From positions 1-64,000 of the forward strand of contig JAKAGV010000003.1 of the NCBI GenBank assembly GCA_021815405.1: DNA of 64,000 bases. Reading direction: 5' to 3'. A program made the position numbers and the translations under genes. This DNA comes from Bacteroidota bacterium (GTDB taxonomy: Bacteria; Bacteroidota; Ignavibacteria; Ignavibacteriales; Ignavibacteriaceae). The notes under the pieces are model-generated. The model had not been told where the DNA came from. It made no database searches and was given only the letters and a program-made list of their open reading frames with translations. Positions 29,902-46,960 of this stretch are shown here, one piece after another (position 1 is the first letter of the stretch; each line of letters opens with the position of its first letter).

Positions 29902-29911
29902 CATCTTAATT

Positions 29912-29963
29912 GAAAATTGAACATTGAATATTCTCTCAAATTAGTATTCAATATTCAACTTTC
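29912..29963. repeat. imperfect intergenic inverted repeat
   Basis: An 18-base arm at 29912-29929 pairs with 29946-29963 at about 16 of 18 positions. It is built from ATTGAA/TTCAAT units and resembles the sequence at 48155-48184. It lies between aprA and the zinc-ribbon gene. Confidence 0.5.
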
Positions 29964-29997
29964 GATTCATGATGTTCAATAAATAGGTAAATGATCT

Positions 29998-30261
29998 ATG
30001 GAAGAGAAAGTAAAAATCTGTCCGCACTGTAAACAACCTTTAAAAAAGTGGTTGTGCCCGCCAGATACCTCATGGGACGTCGAGTTCCAATATGTGTGTT
30101 TCAATGATGAATGCGCTTATTATGTTAATGGTTGGGATTGGATGAAATCCAAATTTAATCAGAATATTTCTTATCGATATAGAATAAATCCGACCAACGG
30201 GGAGTCCGGACCTTTACCTGTGTGGTCAAACGATGCCTTGAAAAATTTTATAGTTACTTAA
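29998..30261 (+). CDS. small zinc-ribbon protein between aprA and qmoC
   Basis: An 87-residue soluble protein with two cysteine pairs, CPHC near residue 8 and CFNDECAYYVNGWDWM near 35, resembling ogr/Delta-type zinc fingers. The rest (YRYRINPTNGESGPLPVWS) is a conserved-looking tail. I recall similar small proteins in sulfate-reducer genomes but cannot assign a function. The position in the apr-qmo block suggests a regulatory or assembly role. Confidence 0.7.
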   Translation: MEEKVKICPHCKQPLKKWLCPPDTSWDVEFQYVCFNDECAYYVNGWDWMKSKFNQNISYRYRINPTNGESGPLPVWSNDALKNFIVT

Positions 30262-30312
30262 ATCTGATGTTGCACGCATGAGCGACGCAACCTAATTACA
30301 AAGGTGAAATAA

Positions 30313-31095: not shown

Positions 31096-31104
31096 GCTAC
31101 TGTT

Positions 31105-32289
31105 ATGAGCGGAAGAAAAATATTAAAGCCCGACTTGCAGTTAATAAAATATTTAAAAGAAAATGGTGGCGGCGATCTGAAGAAATGTTACCAGTGTGCA
31201 ACTTGTACTTCAGTATGTCAGCTTTCAAATGAAGAGTACGGATTTCCACGAAGACAAATGCTGCTGGCTCAATGGGGTTTAAAGGAACAATTGATGAAAG
31301 ATCCTTCCCCTTGGCTTTGTTTTTATTGTGGTGACTGTTCGAAGCGGTGTCCAAGAAAAGGTAATCCGGGTGAAACAATGATGAATCTGCGCAGATACTT
31401 GACTTCCTGCTATGATTGGACAGGTCTTTCGCGCTTAATGTACAGTTCTGTCTTTTGGGAAATTGGAGTGCTGATTGCAGTTGCAGCGGTAATAATACTT
31501 TTGTTTACACTTCCTCAGAATTTTGGTTTTGGATTGTTGGCGCAATCCGGAAACGCACCATTGACTACGGTAATGTTGGATAAGTTTGCGCCGGCTGATA
31601 TTGTAGATTTAGGTGATAGAATAATGGCGATTGTTTTAGCATTACTTCTACTCAGCAATGCTTCACGAATGTTCTTCGGATTGACACGAGATGAGAATAT
31701 TCCTTTCAGCTTTTACATCAAAAAACTTCCGCATTTTGTTATTCAAGGTATAACCCAGAAGCAATGGGGGAAATGCGGCAGCAGCGATTCAAATACCAAC
31801 TGGATTCGTCATCTTTTTCTTGTAAGCGGGTACGCAATAATGTTTACACTTGTTGTTGTGTTTCTGCCTTGGTTCCAGGTTAACGGAACTAGTCTTCATT
31901 GGACAAGCCTATTAGGATACTATTCTACTATTGTGCTGCTTTCATCGACTGCTTGGATTATAATTGACAGAATTAAGAAGCGGACAGAGATGCATTTGTT
32001 TAGTCATTTTTCGGATTGGTTATTCCCCATCTTACTTTTTCTCTCGGCGCTAAGCGGCATTCTCCTTCATATCTTTCGAATCATAAATTTGCCCCTGACA
32101 ACTTACTACACGTATATGATTCATTTGGTAATTGTTGTCCCCATGCTTGTGGTAGAAGTGCCCTTCGGAAAGTGGTCGCATTTATTGTACAGACCTTTAG
32201 CTTTGTACGTTGCAGCAGTAAGAAGCAGTACTAAAGACTATCTCATACAAGAACAATCAACTGTAAACAATGTTGCTGCATCAGTATAA
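31105..32289 (+). CDS. qmoC: QmoC, ferredoxin-cytochrome b membrane subunit
   Basis: A 394-residue protein with an N-terminal HdrC-like domain carrying two [4Fe-4S] motifs (CYQCATCTSVCQ near residue 28 and CFYCGDCSKRCPRKGNPG near 72) and a C-terminal NarI-like membrane domain with about six helices and conserved-looking histidines (THLFLVSGYAIMF region; YMIHLVIVVPMLVVEVPFGKWSHL). It anchors QmoAB to the membrane and takes electrons from menaquinol. It is separated from qmoAB by five genes, unlike the usual qmoABC order. Confidence 0.94.
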   Translation: MSGRKILKPDLQLIKYLKENGGGDLKKCYQCATCTSVCQLSNEEYGFPRRQMLLAQWGLKEQLMKDPSPWLCFYCGDCSKRCPRKGNPGETMMNLRRYLTSCYDWTGLSRLMYSSVFWEIGVLIAVAAVIILLFTLPQNFGFGLLAQSGNAPLTTVMLDKFAPADIVDLGDRIMAIVLALLLLSNASRMFFGLTRDENIPFSFYIKKLPHFVIQGITQKQWGKCGSSDSNTNWIRHLFLVSGYAIMFTLVVVFLPWFQVNGTSLHWTSLLGYYSTIVLLSSTAWIIIDRIKKRTEMHLFSHFSDWLFPILLFLSALSGILLHIFRIINLPLTTYYTYMIHLVIVVPMLVVEVPFGKWSHLLYRPLALYVAAVRSSTKDYLIQEQSTVNNVAASV

Positions 32290-32372: not shown

Positions 32373-33863
32373 ATGATGGTAATACCACATCTTTTCTTTT
32401 CATCAAATGCTAATTGGCGCTGGTTTATACTTACAACAGTGCTGATTGGCGCCACAATGTCCGCTCTTGACGTAAGCATTGCAAACATTGCGCTACCGAC
32501 TTTGAAGAGGTATTATGATATTTCTCTTTCACTTGATGAGTGGGTAGCGATAGCTTATATGCTTACACTTACAATCTTCCTTCCGCTATTTGGAAGACTT
32601 GCAGACATGTTTGGAAGAACAAAAATGTACAGTCTCGGTTTCGTAATATTTACTATTGGTTCTGCATTATGCGGCGTTGCGCCTACCATTGGATTTATGA
32701 TAACTGCACGAATTATACAAGCAGTTGGTGCAGGTTTACTTCAGGCTAATTCTGTGGCGATTATAACCCAATCTTTTCCAAAGAACGAACTCGGCAAGGC
32801 AATAGGCATTCAAGGTTCGGTACAAGCAATATCAATGGCAATAGGACCATTTCTCGGCGGCTTGCTTATAAACCTAAATATATTCGGTACACAGTGGCGT
32901 TCTATTTTCTATATTAACGTCCCGATAGGTATTCTCGGAATACTCGCAGCATTATTCATTTTACCAAAAGATAAGAAGCCAAAAAAAAGAGAAAAGATGG
33001 ACTATGTTGGAAGCATTTCTTTTGCGGCGTCTTTAATGTTTCTTGTTCTTGCTCTAAATGAGGCGCGAAAGTTAGGCTGGGAATCTGAGACTATCATTGC
33101 TTACCTGGTTCTCTTCGTAATATTATTCTTTATATTCACAATAACCGAATGCAAACGGAATTGTCCAATGATGGATTTTAAGTTATATAAAATTTATGAC
33201 TTCACTGCGGGCATACTAACTGGCTTTTTTTCTTACTATGTTTTATTCGGATTGTTATTTGTAATGCCATTTTATCTTGAGAACATACTGAAGTTCTCAG
33301 CATTTTCAGCGGGAGCTATGTTAACTCCTTTACCGATTACAATGTCCCTTGTTGCCCCAGTCGCAGGATCTCTTTCAGATAGATACGGACCACAAATAAT
33401 GACATCGCTTGGCATGCTGATTTGTGCAATGGCTTCATTCAGTTTAATCTTCTGTTCCAGAACTCCTCATACGGCTATCCTAATTACAGAGTTCGCAGCT
33501 TTAGGATTAGGAATGGGTTTATTTACTCCGCCAAATAATAGTTCTGTAATGGGCAGCGTACCCGAGAACAGACTCGGGAGTGCTGGAGGTATTCTAAATA
33601 TGATGAGAGCAAGTGGAAATGTCTTCGGAATAGATTTGTCTGGATTAATCATTACTTCAATAACAGCAGCATATTTAAGCTCAAAAGGATACTTTCATAT
33701 AAATGCACCTAATGTACCTCACCAGCTTCGGGAGGATGGATTTATGCACGGCTTTGTAATTGTTTTAATCATATTTACCGGATTATGTCTGGTATCCTCA
33801 GCTCTGACTATGACTAAGAAGGGAAGAACCAAAATGGCTAAAGAGCATTTTCTCATGGAATAG
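32373..33863 (+). CDS. EmrB/QacA-type MFS transporter (copy 1)
   Basis: A 496-residue major-facilitator protein of the 14-helix DHA2 type. Motifs are LDVSIANIALPTL near residue 30, the motif-A loop GRLADMFGRTKMY near 73, and the motif-C-like QAVGAGLLQANSVAI near 110. It is about three-quarters identical by eye to the next gene, which makes them a tandem duplication. Family members export drugs and other anions by proton antiport; the substrate here is unknown. Its location after qmoC suggests a link to sulfur metabolism, such as export of a toxic intermediate. No partner EmrA or TolC gene is present. Confidence 0.8.
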   Translation: MMVIPHLFFSSNANWRWFILTTVLIGATMSALDVSIANIALPTLKRYYDISLSLDEWVAIAYMLTLTIFLPLFGRLADMFGRTKMYSLGFVIFTIGSALCGVAPTIGFMITARIIQAVGAGLLQANSVAIITQSFPKNELGKAIGIQGSVQAISMAIGPFLGGLLINLNIFGTQWRSIFYINVPIGILGILAALFILPKDKKPKKREKMDYVGSISFAASLMFLVLALNEARKLGWESETIIAYLVLFVILFFIFTITECKRNCPMMDFKLYKIYDFTAGILTGFFSYYVLFGLLFVMPFYLENILKFSAFSAGAMLTPLPITMSLVAPVAGSLSDRYGPQIMTSLGMLICAMASFSLIFCSRTPHTAILITEFAALGLGMGLFTPPNNSSVMGSVPENRLGSAGGILNMMRASGNVFGIDLSGLIITSITAAYLSSKGYFHINAPNVPHQLREDGFMHGFVIVLIIFTGLCLVSSALTMTKKGRTKMAKEHFLME

Positions 33864-33883
33864 AAAAGAAATGGTGAACTTTC

Positions 33884-35392
33884 TTGAAGAGATTAATTAC
33901 CTTAAGCACAGAACCTCATCCCGTTTTCTCATCTCTTAGAAACTGGCGTTGGTTCATATTGATGACTGTACTTATCGGTGCTGCTATGTCTGCTCTGGAT
34001 GTTAGTATTGAAAATATTGCACTGCCCACTCTCAAAAAATACTATGACATCCCACTTTCGCTTGATGAATGGGTGGCTATGGCATATATGCTCACTCTTA
34101 CAATTTTTCTTCCGCTCTTCGGAAGGCTAGCAGATATGTTTGGCAGGACGAGAATGTACAACCTTGGTTTTATCATTTTCACTATTGGTTCTGCATTGTG
34201 CGGTGTAGCGCCAAATATAGAGTTTATGATAATTGCTCGAATTACCCAAGCAATAGGCGGCGGTCTGCTTCAGGCTAACTCTATTGCAATCATAACTCAA
34301 TCATTTCCTAAAAATGAGCTTGGAAAAGCAATTGGAATTCAGGGTGCGGTGCAGGCAATCGCTATGGCTATTGGTCCCTTCCTCGGTGGTCTGTTGATTA
34401 AATTGAATCTATTCGATACTCATTGGCGCTCTATCTTTTATGTGAATGTACCAATTGGCATCATCGGAACATTTGCAGCATTACTTATACTTCCGAAGGA
34501 TAAAAAAATAAAAGTTAAAGAAAAGATGGATTATGCCGGCAGCGCTACGTTTGCCGCAGCGTTATTGTTTCTTGTGCTTGCTCTTAATGAGGGACGAAAG
34601 TTAGGCTGGGAATCAGATACCATTTTGACATATCTGTCGCTATTTATAATCTTCTTTGGAATTTTTATTACCGTGGAGCTGAAGTTTGAATATCCAATGA
34701 TGGACTTTAAACTTTATAAGATATATGACTTCACGGCAGGAAATATTACGGGATTTTTTTCTTATTATGTTATGTTCGGTATACTATTCCTGATGCCTTT
34801 CTATTTAGAAAACGTAGCTAAATTTTCTGCATTTACTGCAGGTGCAATGCTAACACCAATACCCATAACAATGTCGCTTGTTGCACCTTTAGCAGGAATG
34901 CTGTCGGATAAATATGGTTCGGCATTGATGACTTCTGCAGGCATGTTCATATCTGCAATTGCTTCTTTCTGTTTGATTTTTTCTGGAATGAATCCACATG
35001 CCGGTGTGTTAATTGCCGAGTTCGCCTTGCTAGGGCTTGGAATGGGATTGTTTACGCCACCCAACAACAGTTCAGTTATGGGATGTGTTCCTGAAGAAAG
35101 ATTAGGCAGTGCAGGGGGAATACTAAACATGATGAGGGCAAGCGGACGGGTTTTTGGAATAGACCTTTCGGGACTTATACTAACTTCATTAACTGCAGCT
35201 TATCTTAGTTCAAAAGGATTCAAGCACATCAATACCGGTAGCGTACCTTATCAAATTAAAGAGAACGGTTTTATGCACGGCTTCATTATTGTAATTATAT
35301 CTTTTACAGTACTCAATTTCATTTCGGCTATTCTTTCTATAACAAAGAAGGGGCGAACAAAAATGGCTAAGGAACATTTTCTTTCTGAATAA
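33884..35392 (+). CDS. EmrB/QacA-type MFS transporter (copy 2)
   Basis: A 502-residue paralogue of the preceding transporter, 20 bp downstream. The same landmarks are present (LDVSIENIALPTL, GRLADMFGRTRMYN, QAIGGGLLQANSIAI), and the C-termini share KKGRTKMAKEHFL. The most variable part is the N-terminus. The start listed is TTG at 33884 with AACTTTC upstream and weak support; an in-frame downstream start before NWRWFILMTVL is possible. It converges with the cytidylate-kinase-like gene with only 16 bases between stop codons. Confidence 0.78.
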   Translation: MKRLITLSTEPHPVFSSLRNWRWFILMTVLIGAAMSALDVSIENIALPTLKKYYDIPLSLDEWVAMAYMLTLTIFLPLFGRLADMFGRTRMYNLGFIIFTIGSALCGVAPNIEFMIIARITQAIGGGLLQANSIAIITQSFPKNELGKAIGIQGAVQAIAMAIGPFLGGLLIKLNLFDTHWRSIFYVNVPIGIIGTFAALLILPKDKKIKVKEKMDYAGSATFAAALLFLVLALNEGRKLGWESDTILTYLSLFIIFFGIFITVELKFEYPMMDFKLYKIYDFTAGNITGFFSYYVMFGILFLMPFYLENVAKFSAFTAGAMLTPIPITMSLVAPLAGMLSDKYGSALMTSAGMFISAIASFCLIFSGMNPHAGVLIAEFALLGLGMGLFTPPNNSSVMGCVPEERLGSAGGILNMMRASGRVFGIDLSGLILTSLTAAYLSSKGFKHINTGSVPYQIKENGFMHGFIIVIISFTVLNFISAILSITKKGRTKMAKEHFLSE

Positions 35393-35408: not shown

Positions 35409-36239
35409 TTATTGTACAATTACGTTGTCGTTTATATAATAATTGTTACAGCTGCAATCAATGCTTTTTACACCCGGTAGTTCACTTACTAGCTTTTTTA
35501 TTCTTTCTGCTTCTTGGATGTTTTTAACCCGCCCGTAAATTTTAACATTACCGTCTTTTGAGGAAATCTTGAGCATATAATCTTTTGTAGATTTATTTGC
35601 CGCAAGCTTGGCTTTTACGCTGCTCTCAAGTGCTAGATCGGTAAGCGCATTCTTCTTTTCTTGGGTTAGAATAAATTCCGGAGCTTTAGTCATAGCGCTT
35701 ACAATCTCGCATGCAGTTTGAATCGAAACATCTTCCAAATTAATAATAATATCATACATCGAAGGATCATTCCAATCAATATTATAAAGAAATTTTGTCC
35801 ATTTGGTTCTGTATGTATCCATTTTCTTAATGTAAGATGCTGCTTCTTCGCGGGATAAATTATTGCATTCCATTGCGAAGGTGAGTCTCTGTTCCATAGT
35901 TGCAATTGCTTTAACTTTTATTACGCTGCAAGCACCTTTTAGCAATAAGTGACCGGCATGTCCGTAATAAACTATGTTATCGTTTTTTGCATATTCACAC
36001 AAAGTTGCTTGTATAAAAGAAAGATAGCGGAACCTGTCAATACTTAAAGACAAACGTTCCTTTAGAGCCGGCTTCGACTTCATAGCTGTTACAAGCTCTT
36101 TCTCAGAGATGCCATATTTTTCTGCGGCTTCAACCAAGATTTCCCTGCTAAGGGATTTGTATCCTAATTTTTGAGCGAGACATTCGGCAAGTTTTTTCCC
36201 ACCGCTAAATGTACCCCTGGAAATTGTTATTATTGCCAT
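35409..36239 (-). CDS. cytidylate-kinase-like protein with C-terminal BON-like domain (copy 2)
   Basis: A 276-residue protein of the same length and architecture as the one at 21672. It begins AIITISRGTFSGGKKLAECL, which resembles the modified P-loop of cytidylate-kinase-like proteins, followed by SLSREILVEAAEKYGI. The end is BON-like (YMLKISSKDGNVKIYGRVKN ... ELPGVKSIDC). This copy keeps more of the glycine/lysine loop than copy 1. It is the last gene of the long minus-strand operon. Confidence 0.72.
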   Translation of the reverse strand: MAIITISRGTFSGGKKLAECLAQKLGYKSLSREILVEAAEKYGISEKELVTAMKSKPALKERLSLSIDRFRYLSFIQATLCEYAKNDNIVYYGHAGHLLLKGACSVIKVKAIATMEQRLTFAMECNNLSREEAASYIKKMDTYRTKWTKFLYNIDWNDPSMYDIIINLEDVSIQTACEIVSAMTKAPEFILTQEKKNALTDLALESSVKAKLAANKSTKDYMLKISSKDGNVKIYGRVKNIQEAERIKKLVSELPGVKSIDCSCNNYYINDNVIVQ

Positions 36240-36280
36240 AAAATTACCTCAGTCCTAAATTCTGCTTAGAGTTTATTAAC

Positions 36281-38932
36281 TTATTTAAAATTTGCTGCTG
36301 GCGAGGAATCGCCCTGAAGAAATGCATCAACAAATTTTTGAATGCTTTCTTCATTAGTAAGCGTTACATCTACATTTCGTATCGCGCCCATTAACCTTCC
36401 TATTTCTGATAATAATAATAATATAGAAGAGGAAGGAATTTTTCTTATCGTTCCTAAAACATGATCATCTTTAAGTGAAACAGAAAAATTTAAAGACTCT
36501 AAAACCTTTGTTATTATTCGTGCCCTTCTCATTCTTCGGATAGGATCTGCAGCACCGCCGCGAAAATTGAAGTTTATATAATTATTATTTAATTCGTTGC
36601 TTGCATAAGCATCAAGCCTTGAGAAGTGATAACCAAGCCTTGAGAAAAAGTTCAAATAACAATCTGAAATAATAGCGTAACTTCTGCTCCCCAGGTCCCG
36701 GTCGCCTCTATTAGAGTCAACAACATTTGACATTAGAAGATTTGCAAAACCTTTTAAATCTATCGGCAAAGGTCCTGCCCACTTAATACCTGGTGCAGTC
36801 ATTCCGTTAATTAGTGATAAGAAAGGTTCGGAAATGATATCATCTGGAATAATTTGTTTTTTCCCTTTAATATCTTTTAGCCCGCCGCCAAGATCAATAA
36901 CATGAATGTCCAGCGGGACAGTAAACTTTAAAGGATATGCATGTTCGTCTTCGTATTTTGCTGATTCATAAAGCGAGAACATTTCTCTCATCGAATATTC
37001 ATGTGCAAACCTGGTAATATCATGAAACGTTTTACAATTTTCCGGTGAAAAACTTGATGCGCCTGGATCAGTCAGATTCAAAGGAATAACCAGCTTGGAA
37101 ATATTTTGCCAGATGCGATGCATCGGACTTTTGGCAAAAATATTTTTTTCAACGGCTGTAGTTTTATACCAATCAATTAACTCGTTTACCTTGCCCATGT
37201 AAACTTTACATTCATCTGCATCAATTGTAATTACAATGTCATTGGAGAGCTTTAAAGTAGCTTCGCTTGCATTTACAATAACCGGTATGCCAAGTTCCCT
37301 TGCAATAATTGACAAATGTCCAGTCGTATTTCCAATGTCCGCAATAAGACCGGATGCTTTATGCAATATACCGATTATTTCAGGAGAAGCTTTCTTAACA
37401 ACTAAAATACCTCCTGCTGGAAAATTAACAAGATCTTTTGTCCTGTTAAGTACGAATACATTTCCGGAATTTATTCCAGGGCTGGCGCACACACCTCCTT
37501 CTAATATTATTGGATGTTTTGATTTTAATTCTGATGATGAAATCTTTTTATTTATTTTTGTTGTATTTTTTTCCGTTACAGCTAAAGGTCTGCATTGAAG
37601 AATAAACATTTTTCCGTTTTTATCGATTGTCCATTCAATATCCTGAGGGGAGCCGAAATAATTTTCAATTTTCAATGCATATTCAGTCAATTCTTTTACC
37701 TGCTTTTCTGATAAGCAAGGTTTGCCTATAATCTCATCTTGTATTTTTACATCGTGTAAGCCGTCTGTTGTTCTTGGTACTGTCTTATAATTTTGATTAC
37801 CTGGATTGAAATGAATAACTTTATAACTCGAGGCGTCTACAATATACTCTTGCGGCGTAACACTGCCGTCAACTACTTTTGTACCAAGCCCTCTTACAGC
37901 ATGGATAATAATTCCAGCTTTATTGCTTAAAGGATCTTTCGTAAACAGCACACCGCTTGCTTCTGCATCAATCATTTGCATGCAGCCGATACTCATAGGC
38001 ATATCAACATCTCTTAAACCGGTTAAGAATCTATAGACAAGTGATCTCGGTAGATATTTAGATATTAATACTTCAAAGCAAGCATCTATAATATTTGCCT
38101 TACTAACGTTAAGCGCAGTATAATGCAGCCCGGCAAAAGAATGATGAAGATCGTCTTCACCTATGGCGCTTGATCTGACAGATACCAAAACTTCGCCGTG
38201 TTTTTCGGATAAATATTCAAAGTTGTTCAGAATGATTTTCTCGATAAGACTGGGGATCGGTGCAGAAATTAGCATTGCCTGAATTACCTGGCTGATCTGC
38301 TGCACCTGAGCATTATCGTTGAAATCTATTGATGAGATAGCTTGATCAATCTGCGAATACAAATCTCCATGTGCTAAAAAATCCTGAAAAAACCTTGTAG
38401 TAATTGCGAAGCCGTCAGGAATAGGAATTAAAAGCTTGTTATGAATCTCGCAAAGCCTGCTCATCTTACCGCCTACTTCACGAATGTGGTTCATCGTTAT
38501 TTCATCAACTCTATATGAATATGGCTTTCCTGAAATTTCATTTGCATTCGATTCATTCTTTTCACACTCGTTACAATCCGGCTCAATACAGTTCCACCTG
38601 TCCGGACAAAACGATCCTGGAGCAAGAATTTCCGAACATTTATTTTTAATCTTATCGACTTGAGTAATGAGTGTCTTAAATTTTCCTCCGCACATCTGGA
38701 AAAGATGATATGCTACATCTTCTGTATTCTTGAGAATGTCCGAGAATATTGCATGTATTTCTCCTTTGGAAAAAGGTCTGCCTGAGTTTAGGAGATCGCT
38801 GAGATTACTCATTTGTTTTAAAGCTTCATCATTTGATGATAATAATATCTGAAAGTGGTGGAGTTTTTCTTTAAATGAAATTGTCTCTTCAGTTTTCTTT
38901 TTACTTTTTAATATGCTATTAAGTAGCTTCAT
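36281..38932 (-). CDS. PEP-synthase/PPDK-like phosphotransfer protein
   Basis: An 883-residue protein. After a roughly 150-residue N-terminal helical part with a Cys-rich loop (CPDRWNCIEPDCNECEK near 120) it shows the PEP-synthase/PPDK ATP-grasp domain (VGGKMSRLCEIHN; SVRSSAIGEDDLHHSFAG) ending in DIEWTIDKNGKMFILQCRPL near 460. A swivelling phosphohistidine domain follows with the catalytic histidine in TTGHLSIIARELGIPVIVNA (about H538). The PEP/pyruvate-binding domain of true PPDK is not recognisable; the C-terminal 280 residues are different. It overlaps the receiver gene by 4 bp. It is probably a phosphoryl-transfer regulatory protein; substrate unknown. Confidence 0.8.
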   Translation of the reverse strand: MKLLNSILKSKKKTEETISFKEKLHHFQILLSSNDEALKQMSNLSDLLNSGRPFSKGEIHAIFSDILKNTEDVAYHLFQMCGGKFKTLITQVDKIKNKCSEILAPGSFCPDRWNCIEPDCNECEKNESNANEISGKPYSYRVDEITMNHIREVGGKMSRLCEIHNKLLIPIPDGFAITTRFFQDFLAHGDLYSQIDQAISSIDFNDNAQVQQISQVIQAMLISAPIPSLIEKIILNNFEYLSEKHGEVLVSVRSSAIGEDDLHHSFAGLHYTALNVSKANIIDACFEVLISKYLPRSLVYRFLTGLRDVDMPMSIGCMQMIDAEASGVLFTKDPLSNKAGIIIHAVRGLGTKVVDGSVTPQEYIVDASSYKVIHFNPGNQNYKTVPRTTDGLHDVKIQDEIIGKPCLSEKQVKELTEYALKIENYFGSPQDIEWTIDKNGKMFILQCRPLAVTEKNTTKINKKISSSELKSKHPIILEGGVCASPGINSGNVFVLNRTKDLVNFPAGGILVVKKASPEIIGILHKASGLIADIGNTTGHLSIIARELGIPVIVNASEATLKLSNDIVITIDADECKVYMGKVNELIDWYKTTAVEKNIFAKSPMHRIWQNISKLVIPLNLTDPGASSFSPENCKTFHDITRFAHEYSMREMFSLYESAKYEDEHAYPLKFTVPLDIHVIDLGGGLKDIKGKKQIIPDDIISEPFLSLINGMTAPGIKWAGPLPIDLKGFANLLMSNVVDSNRGDRDLGSRSYAIISDCYLNFFSRLGYHFSRLDAYASNELNNNYINFNFRGGAADPIRRMRRARIITKVLESLNFSVSLKDDHVLGTIRKIPSSSILLLLSEIGRLMGAIRNVDVTLTNEESIQKFVDAFLQGDSSPAANFK

Positions 38933-39339
38933 ATGTCTTTAGAAACTATATTTTTTACGAGAGTATTAATTTCGTCGGTTGTAAATGGCTTCAACAAAAA
39001 ACCTGCTGCTTTACTAAAAGTTTCATTAACTGCAATTTCATCCATGCCTAAGTTATAATGAATTCCTGAAAATGAAAATCCTGACATAATTATTATCGGA
39101 ATCTCAGGGTAAATATTTTTTATTCTTCTGAAAATTTCAATGCCATTCATTCCGGGTAAGGCAAGATCTAGTATTATTAAATCAAATGTGTTTTCGCGAA
39201 TTTGCTTCAATGCATCGAGCGAAGTAGTTGAGGTAGTAATTATAAACTCTGTTGATTTGTCGCTCTTTAATGCTCTGCTGATGGATTTAAGGATGATTTC
39301 TTCGCTATCGACTGCAAGCATCTTAATTTTTTTGTTCAT
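38929..39339 (-). CDS. stand-alone response-regulator receiver domain
   Basis: A 136-residue CheY-like protein without an output domain. Phosphoacceptor Asp58 is in LIILDLALPGMNG, the switch serine in IIIMSGFS and the lysine in GFLLKPFTTD. The acidic pair near residue 11 reads VDSEE, with Ser in place of the second usual Asp. It overlaps the degenerate kinase-like gene on one side and the PEP-synthase-like gene on the other by four bases each, so all three are translationally coupled. The partner kinase is unclear because its neighbour lacks the phosphoacceptor histidine. Confidence 0.85.
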   Translation of the reverse strand: MNKKIKMLAVDSEEIILKSISRALKSDKSTEFIITTSTTSLDALKQIRENTFDLIILDLALPGMNGIEIFRRIKNIYPEIPIIIMSGFSFSGIHYNLGMDEIAVNETFSKAAGFLLKPFTTDEINTLVKNIVSKDI

Positions 39340-41024
39340 GCATCAACCGGTAATTCGATAGTTATAAAGGTGCCTATTCTCTCAGAATTAACTTCTAACT
39401 TACCTCCATGCATCTGAATAATGTTTTGGCAGACCGCTAAGCTGATTTCTTCTTTTTCGGGATCACTTAAACCTTTTGAGAAGCCTTCGCTTGTCAACTT
39501 CTTTGCGATGTCAGTACGTTTTCCGCTGCCCGTACTGGAAAAAATAATCTGAAGAAAATTATTAAAGATTCCGGCAGATATATTAATTATTCCTCCAGCA
39601 GACATTGAATCCGAAGTAAGGAGAAGTAAATTCAAAAAAACCTGTTCCATCAGATTGGAATCCGCATGAATTTCCGGAAGCTGTTTTTGAATGGTGGTTA
39701 TAACTTTAATATTTCGAAAGTTTGAAAATTTTTCTACAACGGAGACAGCCATAGAGATTATTTTACTTAAATCTGTAGAGCTGAATACGGGAGGTTTACG
39801 CTTTGTAAGCGATAAAATATTTTTAATACTTTCTCTTATTTTCAATGCTTGCTGTTTAATGAGCTCAAGATCTTTTGTGGTTGAAGCAATGTTGTGTTCA
39901 TTATTATTAAAGCCTGATTGCATTTCTGAAAGAAGACTTTCAGAAAAGATTAAAATTCCGGTTAACGGATTTTTAATTTCGTTTGCAACTTCATCGGCAA
40001 GCTTGCCTACGGAAGCAAGTTTCTCAGATTCGATCAGCTGCGATTGTGTCAGCACTAATTGCTTCTGCATTTTATTAAACGATTCCGAAAGTATTCCAAG
40101 TTCAGCTTTGCCTGGCGGTATTTCATGTTTAAAGTCACCTTGAGCAACCCTAATAGTTCCACTAACTATATTTTTTACCGGTTTCCCGATTAGATATCTG
40201 ATAGAAAAATAAACTATCAAAGATGCGATTACAGCAAACAAAACAGTCAACAATATTAATTGCCTCCGGGTATTTTCGATGCTGGAAATTACTTTCTTTA
40301 TCGATACTTCTATTTCAATAAATCCCAAAATTTTTTGTGAAGAGTCATGAGCAAAAAAAGTAGTTGAACCTGAAGCGCTTATAGGTAAAGATTTTTTTCC
40401 CGAAGAAGTGCCCTGAAAGCTTTGCCTTTTTTCACCGGATATCACTTTTGAAAAATTCCTACCATTATCCGGATCATGAATATTAATTGCGTGGCATTCT
40501 TCAGTATAACATTCAGGTGCATTATAGATTGGCAGCGCATAATAGACTAACGATTTTTTATCATCAATTCTGTAGTGATGAAAATTTTTTATGTTTGGAA
40601 AGGAAGACCGTGATGAGATAGGCATTTGAGTATGACAGCTTATGCATAACTTACCGCTGTGTGAAATGTCCTTATTAATATCTGATTGAACAGATGAAAA
40701 TTTAATTTCACCTTTATGATTGATTATCCTAATAGATTTAATATCTTCTTTATCAACAATATTGCTAATAGATAATGAGATCTCATCACGTTGGTTTTTC
40801 AACATGCTGACTCTTAAAATCTTTTCAATTGTACTGCTAAGCTGTCCGGTATTATTACAGATAGAATTAATAGCATCGTCTTTCTGCTTAATCAGACTTA
40901 AGATAGAAAGTGCGCCCATTGCAGTTAGAATGATTATTCCAATTAGAATAGACACCCGCGTAGAAATACTGAGGTATTTCAATTTCCTCTGTACTTTGCT
41001 TTCCGATTTTTTATGTACTGTCAT
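39336..41024 (-). CDS. haem-sensor histidine-kinase-like protein with degenerate catalytic boxes
   Basis: A 562-residue membrane protein: first helix about residues 25-47, a periplasmic sensor with haem c sites CISCH and C-x4-CH (CYTEECH), second helix about 250-272, HAMP, then a kinase-like core. The H-box reads GKLADEVANEIKNPLTGI, with Asn348 where the phosphoacceptor His is expected. The N-box reads VFLNLLLLTSDSM, without the second Asn. The G1 box reads SSTGSG, where Asp is usual, and the G2 glycines are replaced (EKEEISLAV). HGGKLEV is retained. The frame is intact, so this looks like a signalling pseudokinase that may act through binding. Haem attachment is inferred from the motifs. Confidence 0.8.
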   Translation of the reverse strand: MTVHKKSESKVQRKLKYLSISTRVSILIGIIILTAMGALSILSLIKQKDDAINSICNNTGQLSSTIEKILRVSMLKNQRDEISLSISNIVDKEDIKSIRIINHKGEIKFSSVQSDINKDISHSGKLCISCHTQMPISSRSSFPNIKNFHHYRIDDKKSLVYYALPIYNAPECYTEECHAINIHDPDNGRNFSKVISGEKRQSFQGTSSGKKSLPISASGSTTFFAHDSSQKILGFIEIEVSIKKVISSIENTRRQLILLTVLFAVIASLIVYFSIRYLIGKPVKNIVSGTIRVAQGDFKHEIPPGKAELGILSESFNKMQKQLVLTQSQLIESEKLASVGKLADEVANEIKNPLTGILIFSESLLSEMQSGFNNNEHNIASTTKDLELIKQQALKIRESIKNILSLTKRKPPVFSSTDLSKIISMAVSVVEKFSNFRNIKVITTIQKQLPEIHADSNLMEQVFLNLLLLTSDSMSAGGIINISAGIFNNFLQIIFSSTGSGKRTDIAKKLTSEGFSKGLSDPEKEEISLAVCQNIIQMHGGKLEVNSERIGTFITIELPVDA

Positions 41025-41326
41025 TCGCTATGCGAAATCCTAGAAACGTTAATACCAAAATGCTTCAGCACCAGATCGGTTCCAAAAGCCATTATTGAGC
41101 CTAAGGCAGCCATTACCAAAACAACTACAACAGCATACATAAATCTGTCATTGTTGTAAAGCTCGACTATCCAAAGATTAACGCCGGAGAGATTTTTGGT
41201 GCCAACTTTTTCATTTAATGATGTTTCCTGCTTTCCGCCGACTTCACTACTTGCAAATGAATTGTTGTAGGCGATACTCAAAACAAAAAACAGCAAACAC
41301 AAAGTAATTATTTTCTTCATAGACAT
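41021..41326 (-). CDS. small exported or membrane protein beside TauE permeases
   Basis: A 101-residue protein with an N-terminal signal peptide (MKKIITLCLLFFVLSIAYNN then FASS) and a C-terminal membrane helix (YAVVVVLVMAALGSIMAFG). No domain is recognised. It overlaps the kinase-like gene by 4 bases and lies 16 bp after the last TauE gene. It may be an accessory subunit of the permeases or of the sensor. The third codon (ATG) is an equally good start. Confidence 0.65.
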   Translation of the reverse strand: MSMKKIITLCLLFFVLSIAYNNSFASSEVGGKQETSLNEKVGTKNLSGVNLWIVELYNNDRFMYAVVVVLVMAALGSIMAFGTDLVLKHFGINVSRISHSE

Positions 41327-41342
41327 AACTTAACCCTTTATT

Positions 41343-42410
41343 TTAGTTCCTACTTAATTTAAGATTCTTCTTTTCTTTTTTAACTTCGAGAAATAATCTT
41401 GTAATAATTATAAACGTCATAATCACCGCAGTTCCCATCAGAACTATTCCGGCAGTGGATTGGAATGCTGGAATTTCTGTAATCTTATAAATTTGTTCCA
41501 ATGCGATAGAGCAGCCTGCAAACAAAATCATTATTGCAAACAACAATCTTATTCCATATCCTTTTATATATTTAACTGCTGTGGCGCCAATCTGTGCGCC
41601 AATTGAAGCGCCAATCAACATTATAAATGCCGCAATAAATTCTACACGACCTTTGATAGCATAAGTAAAGCAGCCATAAGCACCGGAAAAAAGAACACTC
41701 ATTAAATCAGTACCAACTGCAATAACGGTAGGAACTCCTATCAAATAAACAAGAGCCGGCATTCTGATAAATCCTCCACCGACTCCTAAAAATCCGGATA
41801 AAAAGCCTGTGAATAAGAATACCAACAATACAATCCACAAAGAAACTGACCTTATGCCCGAAGCAGGAAAGGAAATCATTGGAGGAAGATTTATATTATG
41901 AAGTCTTTCGGAGATGCTGCGCTTAGGTTTTTTTGGCTTCGAATTTATGGGATCAACTGATAGTCCTAATTTCCCTTTTTGTCTTGCCGGGTTTTGTGAT
42001 AAATAATCATAGAACATAAGTGAGCCGAGCCCAAACATTAAAAATAGATAACACCATCTTACAATAGAACCGACGTCGCCGGCTTTCTCCAAAAATAGAA
42101 TTACTTGCGAGCCGATTTCCAATCCAACAACTGAAGCAGCAATAGAAATAAAACCCAGCTTCCAATCGATGTTGCCCATCTTATGATGTTTTACTGTTGC
42201 GCCGATTGACTGACCGAAAATATTTGAAAGATCAGTCCCAATCGCATATGCCATGTGAAATCCGAAAATGTTTAATGCAGGCGTAACAATCCAGCCTCCG
42301 CCAACACCAAAGAAGCCGCCGAGGACACCAACACAAAAGCCGATCAGGAGTAACAACAAGGCGTTGAATTCAATACCGGCTATCGGTAATGAAATGTTAA
42401 ATATGTCCAT
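41343..42410 (-). CDS. TauE/SafE-family anion permease (copy 3 of the array)
   Basis: A 355-residue polytopic protein with the two TauE repeats, each holding a glycine-rich loop (LGGFFGVGGGWIVTPAL near residue 30 and GFLSGFLGVGGGFIRMPAL near 200). The family exports or imports sulfite, sulfonates or related anions. It differs from its two neighbours in a longer central loop (SVDPINSKPKKPKRS) and a divergent C-terminus. Here it could serve as a sulfate importer or a sulfite/sulfide-type exporter; the direction cannot be read from sequence. Confidence 0.85.
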   Translation of the reverse strand: MDIFNISLPIAGIEFNALLLLLIGFCVGVLGGFFGVGGGWIVTPALNIFGFHMAYAIGTDLSNIFGQSIGATVKHHKMGNIDWKLGFISIAASVVGLEIGSQVILFLEKAGDVGSIVRWCYLFLMFGLGSLMFYDYLSQNPARQKGKLGLSVDPINSKPKKPKRSISERLHNINLPPMISFPASGIRSVSLWIVLLVFLFTGFLSGFLGVGGGFIRMPALVYLIGVPTVIAVGTDLMSVLFSGAYGCFTYAIKGRVEFIAAFIMLIGASIGAQIGATAVKYIKGYGIRLLFAIMILFAGCSIALEQIYKITEIPAFQSTAGIVLMGTAVIMTFIIITRLFLEVKKEKKNLKLSRN

Positions 42411-42436
42411 AATTTATTCCTCTAGTAATGAGAAAA

Positions 42437-43495
42437 TTATTCTGATTTATTTTTTAATGTTTTTTCTTTCCTCGATTCTAATAAAAGCCTTGCAATAATC
42501 ATGAAGGTCATAAATATTGCAGTTCCCATCAATACGATTTCTGCAAAAGTTTGGTAAAATTTAATTTGAAAAATTTTATAGATTTGTTCGAAGCCCACCG
42601 AACAGCCCGCGAAAATAATCATGATTGCAAAAAGAAGTCTTATTCCGTAGCCTTTAACATATTTTACTGCAGTTGATCCGATCTGCGCCCCGATTGATGC
42701 ACCTAATAGCATAATGAATGCAGCTACCAATTCAACCCGACCTTTGAGAGCATAAGTAAAGCATCCATAAGCTCCGCTGAAAAGTACGGTAATTAAACTT
42801 GTGCCAACTGCAACTGTAGTAGGAAGACCGATTAGATAAATCAATGCCGGCATAATTATAAATCCGCCTCCAACACCTAAAAATCCCGAGAGAAAACCGG
42901 TGATTAAAAAAATCAAAAAAATTATCCAAACAGAAACGCTGTCGATCCCGGATGCTGGGAAAGAAATCATCGGCGGAATATTTATGCGGTGCAGCTTTTC
43001 TGAAATTTTAGTTCGTCCATTTTTTTTGTTTTCACTATTATTTCCATCCAGATCCGTTTCATTTAACTGCCTTGACTGAATTACGAAATAATCGTAAAGC
43101 ATATAAGCTCCAAGACAGGCAAGCAGCAGCATGTAACACCACCTGACAATTACTCCGACATCACCGGCTTTTTCCATCGCAATAATTACTTCGGAACCTA
43201 TTTCCAATCCGATAACCGAAGTGAGAATTGAAATGATGCCCAACTTCCAATCAATGTTTCCCATCTTCTGATGTTTTTTTACTGCGCCGATTGTCTGCCC
43301 GAAAATATTCGAGAGGTCTGTGCCGATAGCAAAAGCCATATGGAAGCCAAATATATTTAGAGCCGGAGTAACAATCCATCCGCCGCCTACTCCAAAAAAA
43401 CCTCCCAGCACACCTACGCAGAATCCGATTAGAATTAATAACAGAACATTGAACTCGATTCCGGCTACTGGTAACGAAATATTAAATAAATCCAT
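42437..43495 (-). CDS. TauE/SafE-family anion permease (copy 2 of the array)
   Basis: A 352-residue paralogue with the same glycine-rich loops (GGFFGVGGGWIVTPAL; GFLGVGGGFIIMPALIYL) and IGTDLSNIFGQTIGAVKKHQ. It is closer to the copy at 43532 in the loop KKHQKMGNIDWKLG. The central loop is Asn-rich (ETDLDGNNSENKKNG). It starts 27 bp from its downstream neighbour in the operon. Same functional reasoning and uncertainty as the adjacent copies. Confidence 0.85.
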   Translation of the reverse strand: MDLFNISLPVAGIEFNVLLLILIGFCVGVLGGFFGVGGGWIVTPALNIFGFHMAFAIGTDLSNIFGQTIGAVKKHQKMGNIDWKLGIISILTSVIGLEIGSEVIIAMEKAGDVGVIVRWCYMLLLACLGAYMLYDYFVIQSRQLNETDLDGNNSENKKNGRTKISEKLHRINIPPMISFPASGIDSVSVWIIFLIFLITGFLSGFLGVGGGFIIMPALIYLIGLPTTVAVGTSLITVLFSGAYGCFTYALKGRVELVAAFIMLLGASIGAQIGSTAVKYVKGYGIRLLFAIMIIFAGCSVGFEQIYKIFQIKFYQTFAEIVLMGTAIFMTFMIIARLLLESRKEKTLKNKSE

Positions 43496-43531
43496 TTGTC
43501 AGTCTATTTTGTAATTGAATTTTTCTTCTCG

Positions 43532-44581
43532 TTATTTTTTAATTTCTTTTTTAGATTCCATTACAAGTCTTAAGATGATTACAAGAGACATGCTTAAAGT
43601 AGTTCCCATTAAAACAATTGCTGCCATCATCTGGAAATAATCTTGCATTGTCAATTTATATAGCTGCTCGGTCCCAACTGAAAGTGCGGCGAAGATAATC
43701 GTAATTGCGAACAACAGTCTTATACCATAACCCTTAATATATTTAACAGCAGTCGAGCCGACTTGCGCACCAATTGAAGCGCCAATCAACATTATAAATG
43801 ATGCGAGCAATTCAACTCTGCCCTTCATTGCATAAGTAAAACAGCCGTACGCACCGCTGAAAAGAACAGTTATCAAGCTTGTTCCCACGGCAATTGTCGT
43901 AGGCAGACCGATTACATAAACCAGAACAGGAACAATAATGAATCCGCCGCCAACGCCTAAAAAACCGGATAGAAATCCTGTAATCAAGAAGATGAAAAAA
44001 ATAATCCAGATTGATACTCCATCGATGCCGGAGACTGGGAATGAAATCATTGGCGGCAGATTAAACCTATGTAACCTTTCGGAAAATTTTGTTCTGGAGA
44101 CATTCTGCCCTGTCTTGGTTCCGCTTTTATTTTCTTCTTCCCTCAATTTTATTTGCCTTTGTTGAAGGACGAAATAATCGTAAAACATATAAGCCCCAAG
44201 TGCGGTAAGCAGAAACATATAACACCATCGAACGATGACACCAACTTCGCCGACTTTTTCAAGAGAGATTATAACATCGGAACCAATTTCCAATCCGATG
44301 ACAGAAGTAATTATTGAAATCATTCCGAGTTTCCAATCTATGTTTCCCATTTTTTGATGTTTTTTTACTGCGCCGATAGATTGACCAAAGATGGTAGCAA
44401 AACCAGTACCAATTGCAAAGTCCATATGAAAGTCGAAAATATTTAATGCAGGCGTAATCATCCATCCGCCGCCGACTCCAAAAAAACCACCAAGTACACC
44501 AACACAAAAGCCAATTACAAATAATAGAAGGACATTGAATTCAACGCCGGCAACAGGTAGATAAATATAAAAAATGTTCAT
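43532..44581 (-). CDS. TauE/SafE-family anion permease (copy 1 of the array)
   Basis: A 349-residue paralogue, first in the three-gene array and directly after cobA. It has the glycine loops (GGFFGVGGGWMITPAL; GFLGVGGGFIIVPVLVYV). It differs from both sisters at the first-repeat motif IGTGFATIFGQS, where they have IGTDLSNIFGQ. The replaced Asp suggests diverged substrate or coupling. About nine helices are expected. Confidence 0.85.
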   Translation of the reverse strand: MNIFYIYLPVAGVEFNVLLLFVIGFCVGVLGGFFGVGGGWMITPALNIFDFHMDFAIGTGFATIFGQSIGAVKKHQKMGNIDWKLGMISIITSVIGLEIGSDVIISLEKVGEVGVIVRWCYMFLLTALGAYMFYDYFVLQQRQIKLREEENKSGTKTGQNVSRTKFSERLHRFNLPPMISFPVSGIDGVSIWIIFFIFLITGFLSGFLGVGGGFIIVPVLVYVIGLPTTIAVGTSLITVLFSGAYGCFTYAMKGRVELLASFIMLIGASIGAQVGSTAVKYIKGYGIRLLFAITIIFAALSVGTEQLYKLTMQDYFQMMAAIVLMGTTLSMSLVIILRLVMESKKEIKK

Positions 44582-44590
44582 GTGTTCCCT

Positions 44591-45412
44591 TTAAGCAGGT
44601 AGAGAGGGGAAACTGACTAAGCAGCCCTCAGAAGTTTCTTCTATTAAATATTTATTATTTTCAAACCATGATATCTCATTTCTCATAGATACTGTCGGGC
44701 TGATCACTATAATAACCGGTTGATGAAAATTTTCTCTCCTAAACTCTTCCGCGATTTGATCGAGCCGTGCGGTAATTGTTCTTTGGTAGGGGAGTGTTCC
44801 ATTCTCTATAACAGCAGCTGGCATTGCCGGATCCATTCCATGCTTAATTAATTCAGCACAAATCTTTTCAATTCTTGAAGCACCCATGTAAATAATCAAG
44901 TTTGTATTTTTAAGCTTTGCCAATTTTTCCCAGTCAACCTGGCTTTCATTTTTGCCCGGAGATTCATGTGCAGTAATTAAAACGCATTGAGTTACAACGC
45001 CTCTTTGCGTAATCGGGATACCGCTGTAAATAGGTGCTGATAGACCTGCTGTAAGTCCGGGGATTATTTCATATTCAATTCCTTCTTTTTTAAGAACGGC
45101 TGCTTCTTCCGAACCTCTTCCGAAGATAAACGGATTGCCACCCTTTAACCGGACAACATTAAAACCTAACTTTGATTTGTTGATCAGGATATCGATTATT
45201 TTATCCTGTTCAATCGGATGGCAGCCGGATTCTTTTCCGACAAAAATTTTCTCGCAGTCTTCCTTACAATATGAAAGCAAGTCGTCATTTATTAATCTGT
45301 CATAAACTACAACATCAGCCCTTTTTAATTTTTTCATTGCTTTTATAGTAATTAATTCGGGATCACCCGGACCTGCACCAACTATATATACTTTTCCAAA
45401 TTCCAATTTCAT
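44591..45412 (-). CDS. cobA: uroporphyrinogen-III C-methyltransferase
   Basis: A 273-residue SAM-dependent methyltransferase that makes precorrin-2, the first step to sirohaem. Family motifs are VYIVGAGPGDPELITIKAMK at the start, VVVYDRLI, VRLKGGNPFIFGRGSEE near 85, and PIYSGIPITQRG near 125. No uroporphyrinogen synthase domain is fused. With the Met8-like gene at 46047 it completes sirohaem synthesis for DsrAB. Confidence 0.93.
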   Translation of the reverse strand: MKLEFGKVYIVGAGPGDPELITIKAMKKLKRADVVVYDRLINDDLLSYCKEDCEKIFVGKESGCHPIEQDKIIDILINKSKLGFNVVRLKGGNPFIFGRGSEEAAVLKKEGIEYEIIPGLTAGLSAPIYSGIPITQRGVVTQCVLITAHESPGKNESQVDWEKLAKLKNTNLIIYMGASRIEKICAELIKHGMDPAMPAAVIENGTLPYQRTITARLDQIAEEFRRENFHQPVIIVISPTVSMRNEISWFENNKYLIEETSEGCLVSFPSLPA

Positions 45413-45435
45413 TTTCCTTAGTTAAAATTTTTAGC

Positions 45436-46041
45436 TTACAAATGTTTTAGAACATTTACGATTAAGAAGCCTACAGTTGCAACAAATACGATTAAAAAGA
45501 TTACAATTAGTACATCGGCTTGTATATCAGTACTCGAAGAAGTTGCTTGTTCGCGTGATAAAATATTGTCTATAGTTGCAAGAGTTTTTCTTCCCGTATT
45601 TTTAAATTGCTCATCGTACTTAGCAATTTCATTTTGACTAAGTGCAGCAGCACGTATCTCGTCAAAAAACCTATTGTATATATTTGATAACTCGGTATGA
45701 TTAGCATTCAGCTCATTAATTTCTGAATCTGTCAAAGCTTTCAAGCCTATAAGTTCACCCACGCTGAGGTGGAAACCTTCTTTAGCCTTCTGCCATCGGA
45801 GGTACCGTTCTTGTGAATAACCTCTTATTAAAAGATTTTTTTCTTCTCCTCTGAGCTGAAGCTCGGATTCCTTGAGCCTATGAACAACATTTATGATCTT
45901 ATCGCTTTTTTCTATTTGTTGTGTTAGTAACCAACCAAGCACACCGCTGCAAACAATTAAGAAAATAATTATCGAAAAGGTAATCGTTAGTTTTTTCTTT
46001 AATATATTTGCGTCGCTCATATTTGTTACCCAGCTAAACAT
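45436..46041 (-). CDS. four-helix-bundle sensor-like membrane protein without output domain
   Basis: A 201-residue protein with two membrane helices (about residues 17-40 and 175-196) flanking a periplasmic helical domain that resembles chemoreceptor-type 4HB sensors (KLTITFSIIIFLIVCSGVLG; SELQLRGEEKNLLIRGY). There is no HAMP, kinase or methyl-accepting part; the protein ends four residues after the second helix. It is nested between two sirohaem genes, 5 bp from one. Role unknown. ATG at residue 8 is an alternative start. Confidence 0.6.
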   Translation of the reverse strand: MFSWVTNMSDANILKKKLTITFSIIIFLIVCSGVLGWLLTQQIEKSDKIINVVHRLKESELQLRGEEKNLLIRGYSQERYLRWQKAKEGFHLSVGELIGLKALTDSEINELNANHTELSNIYNRFFDEIRAAALSQNEIAKYDEQFKNTGRKTLATIDNILSREQATSSSTDIQADVLIVIFLIVFVATVGFLIVNVLKHL

Positions 46042-46046
46042 TAAGA

Positions 46047-46706
46047 TTATTTTATTTCCTTTAAAAGATCTTGAACATGATGTTTTGTTTTACTCTTGCC
46101 GTTTCTTTTTATTAATTCTTCCCAGTTAGTTTCTGAAAATTTCTTAAACATCATCGGCTTATATTTTGAAGATTTTGCCTTCGAAACTGTTAATGTTTTT
46201 TTTCTAAAATCTCCGGCAAAGTCTGCTATGTCGGAATAAATCGGGGGAATAAAGGTTTCGATTTTTTTCTTAATTATTCTGGTGAAGAATGGAGCCTTTC
46301 CCTGTGAGGCAATTGAGATTGTTAAGTTTCCGCGTTTAACGTTAGCCGGTAAAATAAAATCGCATAGTGCGGGATTATCTGCTGAATTAATTAAGATCCC
46401 TTTTTCGCCACAATGTTGGAAAACTGTTTGGTTAATTTTTTCATTATTAGTCGCACAGAAAACAATTTTAATACCCTCAAGAAATTCTTTGGAATAAGGT
46501 TTTCTGATAATAGTAATTTTCTTTTCGACGGAAAGCTTAGTAAGCGGTTTGCAAAGTCTTGGAGAAATTACGGTTATATATGCATTAAATTCCAGAAGAG
46601 ACAAAACTTTACGAAGAGCAACATCTCCTCCTCCTACTACCAGACAAGGAAATTTTTCTAGATTTATTAGAACCGGGAAAAAAGCCGGATTTCGGTTTTT
46701 GCTCAT
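46047..46706 (-). CDS. precorrin-2 dehydrogenase / sirohydrochlorin ferrochelatase (Met8/CysG-N type)
   Basis: A 219-residue bifunctional enzyme converting precorrin-2 to sirohaem. NAD-binding motif VVGGGDVALRKVLSLLEFN near residue 20; PLCDF-like NSADNPALCDFILPA near 110; SIASQGKAPFFTRIIKKKIE near 133. The methyltransferase half of CysG is absent and supplied by cobA two genes on. It is the most upstream gene of the minus-strand operon, preceded by 254 bp with no gene. Confidence 0.9.
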   Translation of the reverse strand: MSKNRNPAFFPVLINLEKFPCLVVGGGDVALRKVLSLLEFNAYITVISPRLCKPLTKLSVEKKITIIRKPYSKEFLEGIKIVFCATNNEKINQTVFQHCGEKGILINSADNPALCDFILPANVKRGNLTISIASQGKAPFFTRIIKKKIETFIPPIYSDIADFAGDFRKKTLTVSKAKSSKYKPMMFKKFSETNWEELIKRNGKSKTKHHVQDLLKEIK

Positions 46707-46960
46707 AAATATACCGTTCCTTTATAGAAACTTTGTTAATTGAAGAGCAAAAATCAAAGAAGTAAATTATTTTGTATCCTGGTGTTGCTTATAGAATTGA
46801 CTTTACAAATTGTAATTATTCTGAACTTAATGAAAGATAGTTTTATTATTGAAATGACCGACTGAATATCATAATCATTTGATTGAATACACAGGTGTTA
46901 AATGGAAAAGATTAGTAAAATTTGAACTCAACAAACAAATTCAAATGCAGCACTAGTTTT

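Follow-up and report, generated by a model that had tools for sequence, protein, structure and literature searches.

The closest described counterpart of the genes treated here is the 'nitrate cluster' of two Desulfovibrio strains (DVU0251-DVU0245 and Dde_0597-Dde_0605). Its gene order is a TauE-like permease, a hypothetical protein, a PtxB-like protein, a histidine kinase, a receiver, a PPDK_N/PEP-utilizers protein and a phosphatase (PMC4001038). Isolated insertion mutants in DVU0251 (TauE), DVU0250, DVU0247 (receiver) and DVU0246 (PPDK-like) grew equally with and without 100 mM nitrate, but the DVU0245 mutant was nitrate-inhibited (PMC4001038). DVU0246 is the last gene but one in locus-tag order, and the mutant in the final gene, DVU0245, showed no resistance; the need therefore seems to be for the PPDK-like protein itself. 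The authors proposed a leaky thiosulfate transporter, mentioning unpublished data in which G20 mutants are mildly sick on thiosulfate (PMC4001038), and putative thiosulfate transporters that nitrate-resistant mutants had lost are mentioned in a later paper (PMC9723548). We describe a similar gene set in a 64,000-nt contig stretch (JAKAGV010000003.1, hereafter the window) from a 4.97 Mb assembly of an Ignavibacteriaceae bacterium. It encodes a membrane haem protein homologous to histidine kinases, a stand-alone receiver and a protein resembling phosphoenolpyruvate (PEP) synthase, designated PPSL for PEP-synthase-like, next to permeases of the TauE/SafE (TSUP) family.

The likeness to the nitrate cluster comprises an upstream TauE permease, a hypothetical protein, the order kinase, receiver, PPDK-like protein, and occurrence in sulfate reducers; the DVU0247 receiver gene is 360 bp in D. 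vulgaris, so its product stands alone, as does the window receiver (PMC4001038). The PtxB-like periplasmic protein and the tyrosine phosphatase belong to the nitrate cluster only, as Pfam finds neither among the twelve main open reading frames at 35409-47803 of the window. The Desulfovibrio kinase is annotated with PAS and HAMP domains, and the sections consulted mention no haem, unlike the window homologue (PMC4001038). A literature search returned no publication combining TauE, histidine kinase, response regulator, phosphoenolpyruvate synthase and sulfate reduction. The initial annotation had suggested a possible new signalling module. With the published but unexplained Desulfovibrio cluster (PMC4001038), which it resembles in predicted gene content, the module is not wholly new; the haem-bearing version with a degenerate kinase/receiver pair appears to be the newly described variant.

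The three genes lie on the minus strand and encode proteins of 562, 136 and 883 residues (Table 1). Pfam recognizes HAMP, HisKA and HATPase_c in the kinase homologue, Response_reg in the receiver, and PPDK_N and PEP-utilizers in PPSL. A 4-base ATGA overlap joins kinase to receiver and receiver to PPSL, as initially annotated, and also joins the preceding 101-residue gene to the kinase. The overlaps hold for the window; six other loci show gaps of 1-6 bp between kinase and receiver and of 31-72 bp between receiver and PPSL (analyst-chosen starts). The co-directional set also outgrows the three genes. It begins with a cysG N-terminal part and continues through a 201-residue protein, a uroporphyrinogen methyltransferase, three TauE/SafE permeases, a 101-residue membrane protein, the kinase homologue, the receiver and PPSL to a cytidylate-kinase-like/BON protein, with remaining gaps of 5 to 41 bases.

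A scan of genome contigs with the PPSL C-terminal region gave 13 loci, all from Bacteroidetes or Ignavibacteriae; a 20-residue match (L052) was not used. Because the two peptide patterns of the scan derive from close relatives, distant relatives are easily missed. Gene order is of three types. Type A, with the order permease, small protein, kinase, receiver, PPSL, is found in all ten distinct loci whose contigs cover the region: the window, L042-L046, L050, L051, L095 and L096. The contigs of L040/L039 and L041/L037 end within PPSL and were not judged, and L038 and L050 are one contig. Linkage and co-occurrence, on which the initial annotation had staked its proposal, were checked and do extend to other genomes. 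Genes for AprA and QmoC adjoin eight of the ten (the window, L042-L046, L051 and L095); at L096 neither occurs in 14 kb, and L050 ends at PPSL. The common gene order in ten distinct loci, together with low dN/dS (the ratio of nonsynonymous to synonymous substitution rates), argues for more than chance: values for the kinase, receiver and PPSL genes are 0.02-0.2 among the eight most similar pairs listed per gene, several with saturated dS. With PPSL2, the divergently oriented second PPSL of type B, as root, the PPSL tree unites the type-A sequences in one clade with support 1.0.

Related PPSLs stand beside intact kinase/receiver pairs in six further loci. All four type-B loci (L047, L048, L049, L101) have the small protein, TauE and PPSL1 in that order, and divergently the series PPSL2, intact kinase, intact receiver. 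The type-C loci (L097, L099) run from a CBS protein through a receiver-DASS fusion, a stand-alone receiver and an intact dCache kinase to PPSL, and in L097 the small protein and TauE lie between kinase and PPSL. The fusion (L097:14919-16715, L099:2541-4346) joins a receiver to a DASS (Na_sulph_symp) transporter; as predicted from its domains, it is a two-component receiver set directly on an anion transporter. An account of type C as a sigma-54 regulator cluster was dropped, since Pfam scans show receiver-DASS fusions.

The type-A kinase homologue has two c-type haem motifs, which in the window protein lie between hydrophobic stretches at residues 26-44 and 257-275; in the window's own genome, matches to cytochrome c assembly families are present. 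At the DHp phosphoacceptor position, where all 11 intact comparison kinases in the same alignment keep His, every type-A sequence has Asn, which bears out the initial description of a kinase homologue with no phosphoacceptor. All ten have also lost the N-box Asn, and in each of them Ser replaces the final Gly of G2 (GTGLGL). Having lost phosphoacceptor and ATP-site residues, the haem homologue is predicted to be no longer able to act as a kinase. Intact kinases with the same CxxCH and CX4CH sensor occur at L063, L064, L070, L072 and L073, in four of the genomes with type-A loci (G426, G427, G429 and G433). The sensor itself is therefore nothing unusual; what distinguishes the pseudokinase lineage is that its catalytic residues are gone. 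Pseudokinase cores form one group, apart from intact kinases, in a midpoint-rooted tree. In six pairs from the same genomes, the pseudokinase is less conserved than the intact haem kinase in every domain; because the ATP domain does not clearly stand out from the others, this comparison of identities adds no extra support for lost catalysis. The intact haem kinase of L063 adjoins a sigma-54 response regulator.

DivL of Caulobacter is a described pseudokinase in which the DHp His is replaced by one residue across most orthologues while the core is retained, as here, and it shows that a His-less kinase homologue can function through receiver binding (PMC4211667). DivL reads a phosphorylated receiver and keeps its N, G1 and G2 boxes (PMC4211667), whereas the window homologue lacks the N-box and G2 residues. 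A further contrast is that the receiver neighbouring the window pseudokinase is degenerate.

That degeneracy of the receiver goes beyond what was initially annotated. Position 12, presumably the usual place of the second pocket Asp (Mg acidic pair) as in CheY-type receivers, reads S, K, G, G, A, E, E, R, G and S across the ten type-A loci, a loss in ten of ten; the Asp-Asp pair is present in all six receivers beside intact kinases. The phosphoacceptor Asp58 is kept in nine of the ten, window included, and is Glu in L043. Phosphorylation of type-A receivers is probably impaired, judging from these residues.

PPSL, by comparison, keeps the residues expected of its two recognized domains, an ATP-grasp domain (PPDK_N, residues 152-466, 287.9 bits) and a swivelling His domain (PEP-utilizers, 504-574, 64 bits). 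The Lys, Arg, Glu (of DIEW) and Gln that we take to be ATP-site residues, as well as His539, are kept in all 23 aligned PPSLs, window included; the alignment excludes the partial L039/L040 and the duplicate contigs L037 and L038. The initial annotation had placed a phosphorylatable histidine at about H538; the residue is there, numbered 539. ATP-grasp and swivelling His domains, with the same His, also make up PEP synthase (pyruvate, water dikinase; TIGR01418, PDB 8a8e and 2ols). PPSL differs in adding N-terminal helices and a four-Cys motif, which could bind zinc or an Fe-S cluster, and in having 284 C-terminal residues with no barrel-family match. Beyond residue 574 there are zero Pfam matches at E 0.1, and a profile of the C-terminal 284 residues found nothing below E 0.5 among PDB sequences. 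TIGR01418 scores 328.9 bits, against an equivalog cut-off of 739.75, and its match stops at residue 591. A canonical PEP synthase was therefore ruled out by the C-terminal region, with no match to a PEP/pyruvate-binding family and a score far below equivalog level. The closest solved structures to PPSL include rifampin phosphotransferases. AlphaFold2 models (14 and 13 sequences) reached a mean pLDDT (predicted local distance difference test) of 71.5 for whole PPSL and 60.6 for the C-terminal region, where they are weak; for that weak model the best Foldseek E was 0.037 and the best Z 7.0, with root-mean-square deviation 4.3 over 141 residues. Bilin reductases, MotA and ferredoxin-like folds head its matches, at Z <=7, and may share an arrangement only. 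At L051:8210-10868, PPSL is in two overlapping frames, by frameshift or assembly error, and because of this split the PPSL tree does not include L051.

In a class sample of 293 genomes, 12 have both PPSL and dsrA, one has PPSL only, four have dsrA only and 276 have neither. That is, dsrA occurs in 12 of 13 PPSL genomes, upholding the connection to sulfate that had been drawn from the window, and PPSL in 12 of 16 dsrA genomes. The lone PPSL-only genome, G677, looks like the G006 assembly (same contig number, place and frame). Genomes of types A, B and C alike carry dsrA, and in a phylum-wide sample sequence and profile searches found PPSL in one genome of 395, the window's own. PPSL is thus rare in the phylum and appears tied to sulfate reduction whichever kinase type accompanies it. 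Within the window, dsrA scores above cut-off at 7810-8985, and sat, aprB, aprA and a qmoC-like gene (233 bits, cut-off 300) lie at 26172-32289, on the strand opposite to the module set. Their order, sat-aprBA-two small genes-qmoC, matches that described for 'Ca. Thermonerobacter', a predicted sulfate reducer of the Bacteroidetes/Chlorobi (PMC6338057). Plasmid searches with whole PPSL and PPSL2 returned 300 and 205 records, of which none reached 80% query coverage; among the matches listed (best 30 of 300 and best 10 of 205) most were ordinary PEP synthases. The PPSL C-terminal region alone had zero plasmid matches, viral contigs yielded no relative, and a PHROGs scan added nothing. One metagenome-assembled genome, G427 (L043 and L046), has two diverged type-A sets and two dsrA genes and is possibly a mixed bin.

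Our preferred reading, to which we give about an even chance, takes the three genes for the regulatory end of a module that controls transport and serves sulfate reduction, with a phosphorylation-free sensor branch. The TauE/TSUP permeases and the small membrane protein would form the transport part, and the likely cargo would be a sulfur oxyanion (sulfate, sulfite or thiosulfate). A sulfur cargo is suggested because sulfate transport in sulfate reducers has been proposed for TSUP (CysZ-type) proteins (PMC5840216) and because the window's own genome gave one weak DASS match and zero SulP matches (control matched 9 of 14; the search did not extend to CysP-type and other sulfate transporter families). 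The window permeases share PF01925 with the TSUP transporters proposed for sulfate or sulfite and lie beside sat-apr-qmo; they differ in being three tandem copies with a regulatory tail. As to the direction of transport, the chief alternative is that toxic sulfite is exported.

PPSL would be an active ATP-dependent phosphotransferase required by the transport function, passing phosphate from ATP to His539 and from there either to a partner or to an acceptor that its C-terminal region binds. The membrane protein would sense the periplasm through its two c-type haems, with haem as the likely signal. The signal would then pass by conformation, through direct contact, from the pseudokinase to the degenerate receiver, which may be an adaptor docking on PPSL and/or the permease. 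Because the type-A branch has lost the residues of phosphate chemistry and yet is retained, we infer conformational signalling, with DivL as precedent. Control of anion transport, not of genes, is suggested by a permease function that seems to depend on a PPDK-like protein and by receivers beside or fused to anion transporters. The cluster proteins scanned have no DNA-binding output domain (the sigma-54 regulator at L063 belongs to a separate locus), and the type-C receiver-DASS fusion fits the transport-control reading, going by its predicted domains. The four parts shared with the Desulfovibrio cluster and lying beside sat-apr-qmo, the co-occurrence of PPSL with dsrA, and the fusion would all have one answer in anion transport control. 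Such control would bear on two open questions, how sulfur anions move in sulfate reducers and why losing the Desulfovibrio cluster confers nitrate resistance. Nitrate is used against oil-field souring, which gives the second practical weight (PMC4001038). A conserved kinase and receiver pair, both without key residues, would also be a useful case of binding-only two-component proteins.

Several observations weigh against transport control by an unphosphorylated pair. Since the kinases and receivers of types B and C are intact, phosphorylation does count in the family at large. Four of the ten type-A kinase homologues have an intact G1 (DxGxG), and the window receiver retains Asp58, Ser86 and Lys117, so that phosphorylation by another kinase is conceivable. 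Two further PPSLs (L098 and L100) have no match to kinase, receiver or TauE in 19 and 13 kb searched with the same queries. The association of PPSL with dsrA (Fisher p 3.5e-17) ignores kinship, relatedness being uncorrected. On the Desulfovibrio side, transposon insertions upstream may be polar on DVU0246. The DVU0250 mutant was resistant as an isolate and unfit in the pool (-5.82), whereas the mutant of DVU0248, a histidine kinase gene annotated as a pseudogene in D. vulgaris, was fit in the pool (1.43) with little or no advantage as an isolate (PMC4001038). DVU0246, at 2235 bp, is shorter than PPSL, and the likeness of the clusters rests on gene content and order.

Among other explanations, one keeps phosphorylation in the sensor branch: another kinase, or the pseudokinase dimerised with an intact haem kinase from the same cell, would phosphorylate the receiver, which would then act on PPSL or the permease. 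It draws on the intact CxxCH plus CX4CH kinases of the four genomes named above and on the nine receivers of ten that keep Asp58. We consider it doubtful, given that the second pocket Asp is lost in all ten and that the locus with Glu58 retains the gene set; a mixed dimer is unproven because the pseudokinase cores group separately from intact kinases in the midpoint-rooted tree. Alternatively, PPSL could be a metabolic dikinase for a small substrate moved by TauE, with kinase and receiver homologues decaying and without present role. Relatives of PEP synthase do phosphorylate other substrates, rifampin phosphotransferases being an example, and type B pairs TauE with PPSL1 with no kinase between. 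Decay sits poorly with a kinase and receiver in place at ten of ten type-A loci, with invariant haem motifs and with low dN/dS, and in Desulfovibrio, leaving polarity out of account, the mutants in the receiver and PPDK-like genes are alike (PMC4001038), all of which leaves the dikinase account rather unlikely.

More speculatively, and in our judgement improbably, PPSL might be an ATP-fuelled counterpart of enzyme I of the phosphotransferase system, its phospho-His handing phosphate on to the permease complex or to an acceptor for the transported anion. A TSUP sulfur-anion transporter would then be energised or gated by a phosphoryl relay, to which a relic two-component pair, working without any phosphorylation, would couple the periplasmic redox state sensed by the two haems. 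Very improbable is the initial proposal of a circuit in which ATP or PEP phosphorylates the PPSL histidine, the phosphate moves on to the receiver (or some third protein), and the receiver thereby signals the energy state of the cell: adjacent genes, the ATP-grasp residues and His539 kept by all 23 aligned PPSLs, and Asp58, Ser86 and Lys117 in the window receiver are in its favour, but the type-A receivers lack the second pocket Asp in ten of ten loci and the phosphoacceptor Asp in one (Glu), PPSL also stands beside intact kinase/receiver pairs that need no phosphate from it, and its C-terminal end matches no PEP-binding family. A literature search found no precedent for phosphotransfer from a His domain of PPSL type to a receiver, and transfer from PPSL to the receiver is unlikely on the residues present.

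Table 1. Features of the module and its neighbours in the window.
Feature	Coordinates	Strand	Details
PPSL, 883 aa	36281..38932	-	helical N-terminus, 4-Cys motif, PPDK_N, PEP-utilizers, C-terminal region
PPSL C-terminal region, residues 600-883, at PEP/pyruvate barrel place	36284..37135	-	GYHFS and NNYINF..GGAAD motifs
PPSL His539 codon, candidate phospho-His (TTGHLSIIARE)	37316..37318	-	His in 23/23 aligned PPSLs
Four-Cys motif C-x5-C-x4-C-x2-C, PPSL 109-123	38564..38608	-	19/19 PPSL1, 0/4 PPSL2
Receiver, 136 aa, stand-alone	38929..39339	-	Asp11, Ser12, Asp58, Ser86, Lys117
Membrane haem sensor, histidine-kinase homologue, 562 aa	39336..41024	-	HAMP + HisKA + HATPase_c
Asn348 codon at DHp phosphoacceptor His place	39981..39983	-	Asn in 10/10 type-A
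Haem motif 2 CYTEECH (CX4CH), residue 172	40491..40511	-	10/10 type-A rows
Haem motif 1 CISCH (CxxCH), residue 127	40632..40646	-	10/10 type-A rows
Small membrane protein, 101 aa	41021..41326	-	NF040783 (DVU0150 family) 44.3 bits, below cut-off 70
TauE/SafE (TSUP) permease 1	41343..42410	-	PF01925 163 bits
TauE/SafE (TSUP) permease 2	42437..43495	-	PF01925 164 bits
TauE/SafE (TSUP) permease 3	43532..44581	-	PF01925 153 bits
Uroporphyrinogen-III C-methyltransferase, sirohaem pathway	44591..45412	-	TIGR01469 297.6 bits
Sensor-like membrane protein, 201 aa, terminal hydrophobic helices	45436..46041	-	four-helix PF12729 15.4, below cut-off 27
Sirohaem synthase N-terminal domain (precorrin-2 dehydrogenase)	46047..46706	-	TIGR01470 146.8 bits
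Cytidylate-kinase-like + BON protein, directly downstream of PPSL	35409..36239	-	Pfam

The small membrane protein accompanies TauE in all ten type-A loci, all four of type B and one of the two of type C. In D. vulgaris, DVU0150 heads a predicted operon, DVU0150-DVU0146, for transmembrane transport with the regulator DVU0151 (PMC4641369); this operon is distinct from the nitrate cluster. A domain scan of the 201-residue sensor-like protein found no catalytic or output domain; the protein likely has a periplasmic helical domain and recurs beside the module in related loci at 44-56% identity. Two tandem EmrB/DHA2-type transporters of the major facilitator superfamily lie between qmoC and the module (32373-35392), and one or both are at the same place in several related loci. 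Finally, NZ_CP061967.1, a record of 21.8 kb listed as a plasmid of Klebsiella pneumoniae, encodes an AprA 76% identical to that of the window and is probably sulfate-reducer contamination.

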